Source: Leuconostoc palmae (lineage in GTDB: Bacteria; Bacillota; Bacilli; Lactobacillales; Lactobacillaceae). Taken from it: a stretch of DNA of 64,000 bases. Of the stretch, positions 14,632-33,168 are shown one piece after another. The first letter of the stretch is position 1; every line of letters starts with the position of its first letter. The position numbers and the translations under genes are program-made. The notes beneath the pieces are model-generated. The model saw only the letters and a list, made by a program, of their open reading frames with translations, was not told where the DNA came from and did no database searches. The stretch covers positions 1 to 64,000 of the forward strand of contig NZ_BPKZ01000002.1 of assembly GCF_019656075.1 (NCBI RefSeq), read 5' to 3'.

Positions 14632-14651
14632 TCTATATGATATCATATAGA
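14632..14651 (+). promoter_or_regulatory. Perfect 20-bp palindrome over the RHH gene promoter (operator)
   Basis: TCTATATGATATCATATAGA is identical to its reverse complement and ends one base before the RHH gene's ATG. It contains TATGAT (14636-14641), the only reasonable -10. A ribbon-helix-helix protein is encoded directly downstream, and such proteins bind palindromes as dimers, so an autoregulatory operator is the natural reading. Confidence 0.65.
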
Positions 14652-14652
14652 T

Positions 14653-15006
14653 ATGACAAAAAATAGTGATAAACTACACAAAAAATCAGGGAATATTCCA
14701 TTAAGAATAAATCCTGAATTACATGAAGAACTAGCAAGACATGCTATTCAAGAAGGACGTTCGTTAAATAATTATTTAACAAAACTTTTAGAAGAATGTA
14801 TACATCCCAAAACTTTTGAAGATCGACAGTTTGTTGGGAATGTCGTTTCCGGTGAAAACTTTGACTTAGATAGTCAGCTGGTTAAAATATCGGGTATTTA
14901 TTATCGCTTTTTGATTGAAAATGCTCAGAAGATTAATGTTCAAAAAAAATATGTCATTATTGAAGCAAATGGAAATGTCTTAACATTAAGAGAATTAAAA
15001 TCGTAA
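14653..15006 (+). CDS. Ribbon-helix-helix (HicB/Arc-like) DNA-binding protein
   Basis: 117 residues. Residues 14-47 form a typical ribbon-helix-helix: a PLRINPELHEELARHAI strand-helix part, then GRSLNNYLTKLLEE. This is the fold of HicB-type antitoxins and Arc/CopG repressors. The C-terminal 65 residues are beta-rich and unassigned. There is no ribosome binding site and the gene starts almost at its presumed transcription start. No HicA toxin gene is adjacent. Instead the next gene, 23 bases on, encodes an SPFH/band-7 protein. The likely role is a transcriptional autorepressor of this two-gene unit. Confidence 0.78.
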   Translation: MTKNSDKLHKKSGNIPLRINPELHEELARHAIQEGRSLNNYLTKLLEECIHPKTFEDRQFVGNVVSGENFDLDSQLVKISGIYYRFLIENAQKINVQKKYVIIEANGNVLTLRELKS

Positions 15007-15029
15007 AATAAGAATAAAATGGAGAAATA

Positions 15030-15848
15030 ATGTTGTTTTTTAAAATTGTACCTCAAAATAATGTTGGATTAGTAGAAACGCTTGGCAAGTATAGTAACCG
15101 AAAAGAGGCTGGATTGCATTTCTATATTCCTTTCTTTCAAAGAATCAGAAAAGTGAGTCTAGCTATGAGACCACTAAGATTACCAGATTACTCAGTTATA
15201 ACGGCAGATAATGCTGATATAAAAGCAAGTGTTACATTAAATTATCATGTCACTGATGCGATAAAGTATATGTATGAAAATACGGATTCAGTTGAATCTA
15301 TGGCGCAACTAGTTCGTGGACATTTAAGAGATATTATTGGGCGTATGGAATTGAATGAGGCACTTGGTTCCACTACTAAAATTAACGTTCAATTAGCTGA
15401 AGCTATTGGTGATTTAACTAATACATACGGTATTAATGTTGACAGAATTAATATCGATGAGCTACGTCCATCAATTTCTATTCAAGAAGCAATGGACAAA
15501 CAATTAACTGCTGATCGTGAGAGAGTGGCTACAATTGCAAAAGCTGAGGGAGAGGCACGTTCAATTGAGTTAACAACAAAGGCAAAAAATGATGCTTTAA
15601 TGGCAACAGCTAAAGCAGAAGCTGATGCTACGAAAACACGAGCAGATGCTGAACGATATCGTATAGATACGGTTCAATCTGGGCTTACTAATGCAGATGA
15701 TAAATATTTTCAGAATCAATCAATCAATGCCTTTACAACCTTAGCAGAATCGTCAGCGAATCTAGTTGTAGTAGATAGTCAAAAAATTGATAACTTGGGA
15801 CAGCTTCCAATAAAAGGAAAATTGCTAGAAAAAGGTTTTCAAGCATAG
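15030..15848 (+). CDS. SPFH/band-7 (stomatin-like) protein without membrane anchor
   Basis: 272 residues. Begins directly with KIVPQNNVGLVETLGKYS, the start of the SPFH domain (about 5-175), followed by the charged Ala/Glu-rich coiled coil (about 165-225) and a C-terminal tail. Bacterial QmcA/slipin relatives have a hydrophobic N-terminal segment before this point; here only MLFF remains. It may associate with membranes through oligomerisation or a hairpin. GGAG ribosome binding site. It is usually linked to membrane microdomains or proteostasis. Co-transcribed with the RHH protein. Confidence 0.85.
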   Translation: MLFFKIVPQNNVGLVETLGKYSNRKEAGLHFYIPFFQRIRKVSLAMRPLRLPDYSVITADNADIKASVTLNYHVTDAIKYMYENTDSVESMAQLVRGHLRDIIGRMELNEALGSTTKINVQLAEAIGDLTNTYGINVDRINIDELRPSISIQEAMDKQLTADRERVATIAKAEGEARSIELTTKAKNDALMATAKAEADATKTRADAERYRIDTVQSGLTNADDKYFQNQSINAFTTLAESSANLVVVDSQKIDNLGQLPIKGKLLEKGFQA

Positions 15849-25457: not shown

Positions 25458-26546
25458 ATGAAAAAACGTTATTTAGTACTAGAGAATGGTTCAGTGTATG
25501 AAGGAGAAGCATTTGGAGCGGATACCAGTATTATAGCGGAATTGGTTTTTAATACTGGTATGTCAGGTTATCAAGAATCAATTACTGACTTATCATATCG
25601 AGGTGAAATGATTGTTTTCACTTATCCTTTAATCGGAAATTATGGTATTAATCGTGATGATTTTGAAAGCTTGAGACCAGCAGCTTCAGCAATTGTAGTA
25701 CATGAAATTGCACGTAGACCAAGTAATTGGCGTAAAATGATGAGTTTACCTGAATGGGCAGAACGTACGGGTATGCCAGGAATTACAGGTGTTGATACTC
25801 GATCTTTAACAAAAGAATTACGCGATAATGGTGTTATGAAGGCTTCTCTTGTTGATCAGGTGACAGACGAAGTATTTGCAGAATTAGCAGATTTCAAACC
25901 TAGTACGGACTTGGTAGCTCGCGCCACGACTAAAACACAATATCAAAATCCAACTGATGGCATTTCAATTGCTTTAATAGATTTTGGTCTAAAAAATTCT
26001 ATTTTACGATCACTTGCTAAACGTGGCGTTAATGTAATGGTTTTTCCAGCAACGGTATCTGCTGAAACAGTGCTTGCTGCCAATCCTGATGGTATTTTGT
26101 TATCAAATGGTCCGGGTAATCCTGAAGATGCGAGTTATGCAATTCCAACAATTAAAACTTTGCAGGAAACATTACCGTTGATGGGCATTTGTTTAGGCCA
26201 TCAGTTATTTGCTTTAGCAAATGGGGCTAAGACTTTTAAAATGAAATTTGGGCATCGCGGTTTTAATCATGCTGTTAGAAATTTGTCTAGAGAAAGATTA
26301 GATTTTACTTCTCAAAATCATGGTTATGCAGTTGAACGCGAAAGTCTTGCAAATACAGGGTTATCTGTTACGCACGAAGAAATTAATGATTTAACAGTCG
26401 AAGGATTAGCATTAGAAGGACACAATGCATTTTCTGTGCAGTTTCATCCTGATGCTGCGCCTGGTCCGCATGATGCGGAGTATATATTTGATGACTTTTT
26501 AAACATGATTGTACAATCACAGAAGGAGACAGCACAGCATGCCTAA
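25458..26546 (+). CDS. carA: Carbamoyl-phosphate synthase small subunit (glutaminase)
   Basis: 362 residues. The N-terminal CPSase small-chain domain (about 1-160) is followed by a class I glutamine amidotransferase domain. Nucleophile C245 is in GICLGHQL and H330 in [11 protein letters not shown]. The third triad residue, normally Glu in HPE, is Asp here (D332). Its stop overlaps the carB start by 8 bases. It supplies ammonia from glutamine to CarB. Location inside the pyr operon marks it as the pyrimidine-regulated copy (pyrAA). Confidence 0.96.
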
Positions 26547-32911: not shown

Positions 32912-33145
32912 ATGAATTTAGGACTTGGAATTTTAGTTTTGGTTGTTGGTGTTATTATCGGTTTGGTTGCAGGATTTTTCTTAGCAAGAAACTCAATGAA
33001 AAGTTATTTGGCCAAAAACCCACCAATTTCTGAGGAAATGATGAAATCGATGATGATGTCTATGGGACAAAAGCCATCACAAAAAAAATTGAATCAAATG
33101 ATGGCCCAAATGAAACAACAAAGCGAACAAGCACAAAAAAAATAA
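32912..33145 (+). CDS. yneF: YneF-family (UPF0154) small membrane protein
   Basis: 77 residues. One N-terminal membrane segment (about 5-25, [20 protein letters not shown]), then the conserved [24 protein letters not shown] block and a Gln/Lys-rich tail. This is the UPF0154 pattern. Function is unknown. Its stop codon lies in the shared terminator with plsC. Confidence 0.9.
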
Positions 33146-33168
33146 GCCTATAGGCTTATTTTTTTTCA
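33140..33168. terminator. Convergent terminator between yneF and plsC
   Basis: Stem AAATAAGCC/GGCTTATTT with loop TATA and T/A runs. Both stop codons (33143-33145 plus; 33156-33158 minus) lie inside the stem. Confidence 0.88.

Follow-up and report, generated by a model that had tools for sequence, protein, structure and literature searches.

SPFH proteins are classically encoded in operons with NfeD. In the SPFH1–NfeD1 operons of E. coli (QmcA–YbbJ, PDB 8z5g) and P. horikoshii (PH1511/PH1510), a QmcA-like SPFH protein and an NfeD-type OB protein are encoded in tandem. SPFH and NfeD genes commonly form operons (PMC2636767). In S. aureus the OB-like domain of NfeD binds the flotillin FloA (PMC11222466), and both are membrane proteins of microdomains. 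For the B. subtilis SPFH protein YdjI, absence of a membrane anchor is predicted (PMC8581546); it is recruited to the membrane by YdjG/YdjH, works with PspA and has no DNA-binding NfeD as a partner.

The window analysed here, a 64,000 nt stretch of the 1.39 Mb genome of Leuconostoc palmae (contig NZ_BPKZ01000002.1), contains a gene pair with features of each of these systems. Like the SPFH1–NfeD1 operons it couples a QmcA-like SPFH gene to a gene for an NfeD-type OB protein, and its OB-type domain is shared with the S. aureus partner. Unlike QmcA–YbbJ and PH1511/PH1510, both Leuconostoc proteins lack a membrane segment, the partner starts with a ribbon-helix-helix (RHH) domain and an operator box lies upstream; the S. 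aureus pair differs in being membrane-bound. The SPFH protein resembles YdjI in its predicted lack of an anchor. With the RHH autorepressors Arc, CopG and MetJ and the AtaR-type antitoxins the locus shares the RHH fold, an arginine aligned with Arc R13 and repeated boxes before its own gene, yet here the effector half is NfeD-type and the partner is SPFH rather than a toxin. SPFH–NfeD operons, anchor-less SPFH proteins (YdjI) and RHH autorepressors were each already known; their combination in one locus appears to be new. No report of an RHH–NfeD fusion with an anchor-less SPFH protein and an operator was found in the literature searched, which covered few subscription papers.

Domain make-up of the gene pair

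The gene order in the window is Mur ligase, 117 aa RHH protein, 272 aa SPFH protein and DFP/CoaBC-type flavoprotein (coordinates of the features are given in Table 1). The RHH gene is thus flanked by the Mur ligase and SPFH genes, with the flavoprotein further downstream; no toxin gene adjoins it, and neither the RHH nor the SPFH protein has a match in PADLOC, in agreement with the preliminary description, which had reported no adjacent toxin.

Table 1. Features of the RHH–NfeD/SPFH locus, in window coordinates
Feature	Position	Strand	Remarks
Perfect 20 bp palindrome TCTATATGATATCATATAGA	14632..14651		Ends one base before ATG at 14653
Conserved operator box 1, TGATATCA	14638..14645		Conserved 8 bp core of the palindrome
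Proposed extended -10 element TGATATCAT	14638..14646	+	Candidate from the sequence; transcription start expected at 14653
Degenerate box 2, AGATATGA	14649..14656		2 mismatches; 11 bp after box 1; overlaps start codon
RHH–NfeD fusion gene	14653..15006	+	117 aa
Ribbon-helix-helix domain, residues ~11–48	14683..14796	+	Pfam HicB; RHH chains Z ~5
Ribbon arginine Arg18 codon	14704..14706	+	Aligned with Arc R13; co-varies with box
NfeD-type OB-barrel domain, residues ~54–117	14812..15003	+	Profiles and structure comparison; direct profile match weak
Shine-Dalgarno-like GGAGA of SPFH gene	15021..15025	+	Read from the sequence
SPFH/Band_7 gene	15030..15848	+	272 aa; no N-terminal membrane segment

The 117 aa protein consists of two domains, an Arc/HicB-type ribbon-helix-helix followed by an NfeD-type OB barrel. 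Pfam HicB (PF05534) matches residues 11–46 with an E-value of 5.1e-10, so that the HicB/Arc-like RHH protein originally proposed was correctly recognized, and the RHH fold is also indicated by structure comparison and by alignment with Arc. The RHH part additionally resembles other antitoxin RHH families in Pfam searches. The C-terminal NfeD-type domain, however, had been overlooked, and an antitoxin-like identity does not hold for the protein as a whole.

Sequence matches to NfeD itself are faint. The C-terminal half of the window protein alone scores E 0.2 and 12.3 bits against Pfam NfeD (PF01957), for which the curated cut-off is 29.1. The same model matches 5 of 21 diverse fusion orthologues (best E 3.4e-4) and 6 of 8 short OB-only relatives (best E 3e-4), in both cases below or near the cut-off, and at E 0.001 it gave zero matches in the 25 family genomes searched. 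Comparison of profiles is stronger through an intermediate: the OB domain of the fusions matches the OB-only relatives at 98.4 % (E 5e-15), and the OB-only proteins match true NfeD domains at 77 % (E 2e-5), whereas hhalign run directly between the fusion OB domain and NfeD scores poorly (2.6 %, E 0.018), a point against the assignment.

An AlphaFold monomer model of the fusion, built from 50 rows, has a mean pLDDT of 81.5 and a pTM of 0.56; residues 1–14 fall below pLDDT 50 and the ribbon strand is unformed. Foldseek returned no match to this model at E 0.001, its top four entries being 2k5h, 8z5g chain AA, 3wwv and 2exd. VIA-align placed 3wwv (stomatin operon partner 1510-C) at the head of its list (Z 7.7, rmsd 2.3, 60 residues), followed by 8z5g chain AA of the QmcA–YbbJ complex (Z 7.2), 3cp0 (Z 6.6), 2exd, an NfeD homologue (Z 6.0), 2k5h (Z 5.7) and 2k14, YuaF (Z 5.5), and then by the RHH domains of Arc, PutA and CopG at Z ~5; all of these scores are below 8, a range in which Z can reflect just a common arrangement. 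Chain AA is probably YbbJ, judging from its length. Four of the six leading chains carry NfeD-type titles, 2k5h and 3cp0 are NfeD-type as well, and all six are soluble domains. Because six related chains lead the list, and gene order and profiles agree with them, the C-terminal domain is assigned to the NfeD type. The protein has the OB-type beta barrel of NfeD at its C-terminus, but an RHH domain stands where NfeD has its membrane-spanning N-terminal part; it is therefore regarded as a soluble NfeD-type partner and not as a canonical NfeD.

The 272 aa protein is assigned to SPFH/Band_7 with a Pfam E-value of 1.1e-34. Its model, a monomer with a mean pLDDT of 76.4 and a pTM of 0.49, has QmcA of the QmcA–YbbJ complex as its closest solved relative (E 1.9e-15, 30 % identity), and the SPFH/Band_7 domain and long helix of SPFH1/QmcA-like proteins are both present. 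The N-terminal membrane anchor of that group is missing, as had been noticed at the outset: the best 17-residue hydropathy is 0.99, compared with 2.8–3.9 in anchored relatives. By this measure, which is hydropathy alone and leaves room for peripheral binding, the protein would be soluble in location. A single-sequence search gave one SPFH match in the L. palmae genome. Sequence and models together establish the domain make-up, the pairing of the genes and the missing hydrophobic anchor.

Distribution of the pair and of the membrane anchor

At every one of the 74 loci found by a pattern/profile scan a same-strand SPFH gene follows, which is the operon arrangement of NfeD. These comprise 73 loci from a named genome collection, all Lactobacillaceae by title, and one viral-collection contig; 49 of the 73 named loci went into profile A3 and 34 into profile A4. 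A first scan of the named genomes with the single window protein had found nothing. Among the 74, L252 (Weissella halotolerans) encodes the OB part alone and L253 carries a frameshifted RHH gene. A 19 kb IMG/VR contig (L255) bears the RHH–SPFH pair, either as host DNA or as a carried copy. Single-sequence searches of 100 relatives matched the RHH protein in 39, some through the OB part alone, and the SPFH protein in 73; SPFH was found at E 1e-30 in 190 of 241 family genomes. Within the genus both genes are present in 18/19 genomes, the exception being an assembly of 890 contigs. Co-occurrence in related genomes, proposed earlier as a check on the pair, is thus borne out.

Upstream neighbours vary among the loci inspected and include Mur ligase, a HAD-type protein, CsbD, a helicase and DUF1275. 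The pair is also found on 19 Ligilactobacillus plasmids. On the one inspected, Ligilactobacillus salivarius pMP1046A (L299, 2900–4155), the SPFH gene is downstream, tandem boxes lie ahead, and nearby genes encode a Dps-type protein and an S8 peptidase.

A search for RHH–NfeD outside Lactobacillaceae gave none among the matches listed. When 295 genomes of the order were scanned, profile A3 matched 15, each a member of Lactobacillaceae. In 299 genomes of the phylum, profile A1 had 62 matching genomes, L. palmae itself included; none of the other matches listed spans to the end of the 110-position profile, and the longest of them end at 87 (G721), 78 (G544, across two stops) and 67 (G728). In G721, the one of these that was read, an RHH protein is encoded beside a gene that by eye resembles a relaxase, and the listed ORFs include no SPFH.

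Many other Lactobacillaceae have a partner that consists solely of the OB domain, together with an anchored SPFH protein. The 224 unthinned loci comprise 171 with RHH and no anchor, 22 OB-only with an anchor, 18 with an anchor and no partner found, 9 OB-only without an anchor, 2 with both RHH and an anchor, and 2 with neither a partner found nor an anchor; the corresponding numbers for the 118 thinned loci are 80, 18, 13, 4, 1 and 2. These proportions are not a census because 74 of the 224 loci came from a query with the RHH protein, and the class with no partner found could hide divergent or distant partners. The sample of loci also includes 100 hand-chosen from family-wide SPFH matches and 20 from the SPFH search of relatives.

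In a first SPFH tree all 18 rows of an outer group are anchored (13 OB-only, 5 with no partner found), while the other 100 rows are mostly RHH without anchor, with nested anchored groups that are OB-only, have no partner found, or consist of L027 and its near-copy L105. A second tree disagrees with the first in places and groups the Leuconostoc rows with a nested anchored group. L253 and L208 were omitted from the alignments, having stop codons in the ranges used; near-copies were thinned and L074 and L253 omitted as short from the first tree, and L079 and L081 were omitted as long branches from the second. Four changes of the anchor and eight of the RHH domain are inferred on the tree, with three independent pairs, within which RHH mostly stays the same; by these three pairs the association of RHH with the anchor is not significant. 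As the independent changes are too few, no link between loss of the anchor and gain of RHH is claimed, and since the root of the tree was not inferred, gain and loss are not firmly separable. The pattern is suggestive. L027 and L105, in which RHH carries Glu in place of the ribbon arginine, the box is absent and SPFH is anchored, look like a decaying intermediate.

The probable operator box, the start codon and the ribbon arginine

The palindrome that first drew attention to the locus is where it was said to be, perfect over 20 bp and ending one base before the start codon. By itself it is statistically unremarkable, with 0.22 perfect palindromes of at least 20 bp expected by chance per 64 kb of like composition, so that its weight comes from conservation; likewise, the window shows no enrichment of TGATATCA (2 copies vs 2.41 expected). 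The full 20 bp symmetry is private to the L. palmae genome, and the other 17 same-genus loci have 8–10 bp. The perfect palindrome was accordingly rejected as the operator in favour of the 8 bp box, its outer arms being confined to one genome. Of the palindrome expected upstream of orthologues, the 8 bp box TGATATCA is therefore what recurs, at most of them and often repeated 11 bp away; the 20 bp form does not. Other palindromes were observed in the window: a perfect 18 bp one within the RHH coding sequence (14763–14780), a perfect 32 bp one with A/T runs at its ends that is probably a bidirectional terminator (33135–33166), and two near-identical 14 bp ones, both with GATTGTACAATC, that are possibly sites of one shared regulator (842–855 and 26506–26519).

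TGATATCA occurs exactly 7 nt before the ATG in 18/18 same-genus loci, without a Shine-Dalgarno-like site between. Among thinned RHH+ loci it is found in 94 of 123 upstream regions, compared with 0.97 expected from shuffles, and it leads all 256 eight-base palindromes, the runner-up reaching 9 vs 1.57 expected. A strict box is missing from 29 of the 123 and a relaxed box from 22. Of the 27 RHH- loci one, L253, has the box; on reading the DNA this proved to be a frameshifted RHH+ gene, leaving effectively 0/26.

The boxes are also regularly spaced. In the surroundings of 119 strict boxes, copies that differ at no more than 2 positions number 138 at 11 bp and 25 at 22 bp, compared with at most 5 at each other offset from 8 to 30, pairs of strict boxes entering these counts twice. 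One helical turn is the typical spacing of RHH proteins on DNA, and boxes repeated one turn apart ahead of the protein's own gene are seen across the relatives, the second box of the window being a degenerate one. In 241 whole genomes the exact tandem pattern has 31 distinct sites in 29 genomes, with 0 for the reversed control; by hand count, 24 of these sites (23 genomes) lie within ~0.7 kb upstream of an SPFH gene and 7 elsewhere. The pattern is absent from all 11 same-genus genomes in this sample, in which the second box is degenerate, but the genus form TGATATCATNNNDATATGA is present in 11/19 same-genus genomes, with 11 of its 12 sites at this operon. As both kinds of site lie mostly at their own operon, the regulator looks mainly local. 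The seven off-operon sites (G236:C10:16161, G236:C16:28862, G271:C1:86258, G273:C143:103587, G131:C9:12148, G040:C17:14053 and G048:C22:68472) are possibly further targets, or chance.

The box may also form part of a promoter. If TGATATCAT acts as an extended -10 element, transcription would start on the A of the ATG and give a leaderless mRNA. The arrangement TGATATCAT-N6-ATG is found in 22 of the 123 thinned loci, including the named Companilactobacillus loci L198, L201, L218 and L221, and none of the 22 has a Shine-Dalgarno-like site, which is present in 78 of the other 101. A consensus promoter scan omits the TGATATCAT site, for which reason it is treated as a candidate, and names other sites nearby. 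Whether the palindrome covers the only -10 candidate, as remarked earlier, depends on the criteria.

Presence of the box follows the ribbon residue aligned with Arc R13. Where a relaxed box is present (101 thinned loci), this residue, Arg18 in the window, is Arg in 99; where it is absent (22 loci), in 3. The two box-bearing loci without Arg are L103, whose row is cut at a contig edge, and L172, which has a lone relaxed box far upstream; the upstream stretch of L103 was mis-cut, and this locus counts among the 101 relaxed-box loci, not among the 94 strict ones. The three Arg-bearing loci without a box (L069, L092 and L254) have, by eye, near-boxes with one changed base. In a tree of 95 loci, 75 have both arginine and box, 17 neither, 3 arginine without box and 0 box without arginine. 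Supported branches yield five independent pairs, of which an average of 4.9 show the box following the arginine, with a median p of 0.0625, the minimum attainable with 5 pairs. Conservation of the box, its near-restriction to the operon and its co-variation with the arginine are thereby established at the level of sequence and model.

Probable autorepression, its alternatives and meaning

We consider it likely that the locus is a two-gene SPFH–NfeD operon whose DNA-binding NfeD-type partner autorepresses it, probably with feedback from SPFH. RHH dimers would read the TGATATCA boxes repeated at 11 bp, which lie over or near the operon promoter and, in Leuconostoc, extend into the start codon of an apparently leaderless mRNA; bound there, the RHH–NfeD protein would act as repressor of its own operon. 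Binding of the SPFH oligomer is expected of the NfeD-type domain, so that SPFH could titrate the repressor away from the operator and thereby regulate its own level. Autorepression through the boxes is the half of this mechanism that sequence comparison supports well: both the gene pair and, ahead of most orthologues, a box are conserved, in support of the autoregulatory arrangement first suggested. Binding of the DNA and repression by the RHH–NfeD protein itself are deduced from these comparisons. The coupling of repression to the amount or state of SPFH is proposed by analogy with known NfeD–SPFH binding. Since SPFH–NfeD operons are common and NfeD binds FloA, the NfeD-type partner is what the known family predicts; the RHH domain is not. 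The earlier view, in which a membrane-domain protein under an antitoxin-like repressor would be unusual, was therefore misframed, as pairing with SPFH is expected of the NfeD family.

The RHH domain might instead serve mainly as a DNA tether, holding the anchor-less SPFH protein on the nucleoid or at its own gene with autoregulation secondary. DNA-binding features do accompany the anchor-less state: all 75 rows of the tree with arginine and box lack the SPFH anchor, and both RHH+ anchored loci, L027 and L105, lack arginine and box. However, the exact tandem sites are restricted almost entirely to a single promoter in each genome (the 24 of 31 above, degenerate sites elsewhere being unscored), which suits an autoregulator better, and a tether is judged unlikely. 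That the domain simply dimerises its partner, the boxes being plain promoter sequence, would fit the extended -10 reading of TGATATCAT in Leuconostoc and Companilactobacillus, as well as lineages that retain the RHH fold after losing arginine and box. Against it, the boxes recur at 11 and 22 bp, are found also where a Shine-Dalgarno-like site implies a different start layout, track the ribbon arginine and are absent from RHH- loci, and this structural role is accordingly considered improbable.

The co-variation of box and arginine, together with the lack of a box at RHH- loci of the same family, also makes it very improbable that a different regulator binds the boxes, even though binding by the RHH–NfeD protein is deduced from sequence and two of the seven tandem sites elsewhere are in genomes (G040 and G048) in which no RHH–OB gene was found. 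HicB antitoxins have a HicB-type N-terminal domain ahead of RHH. In the window protein just 10 residues precede the Pfam match, and the Pfam search lists no domain of this kind. Although its RHH domain resembles antitoxin RHH families in Pfam, HicB among them, the NfeD-type remainder, the SPFH neighbour in 74/74 loci, the Mur ligase and flavoprotein flanks and the lack of a PADLOC match led us to reject a toxin–antitoxin reading; a HicB-like antitoxin whose toxin has been lost or gone unrecognised is scarcely credible.

Within the autorepression model a gene-regulatory role for NfeD can tentatively be envisaged, by which the SPFH assembly would report its abundance or client load to the genome. 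Plentiful or engaged SPFH assemblies would capture the repressor, which would otherwise return to the operator. HrcA–GroE is a comparable feedback switch. If true, the locus would hold a feedback switch coupled to a holdase and operated by a lipid-raft-type scaffold no longer in the membrane.

SPFH–NfeD pairs are widespread in prokaryotes. As fusion has here joined the partner domain to a DNA-binding domain that has a defined operator, promoter activity might serve as a readout for the state of an SPFH assembly, in a bacterium that is simple and non-pathogenic. The natural variants (anchor and no RHH, RHH and no anchor, and decayed RHH) offer ready comparisons for the purpose of the anchor, and allow one to ask whether SPFH assemblies function in the cytoplasm. 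Across Leuconostoc and numerous other lactic acid bacteria, one small system appears to unite scaffold and gene control.
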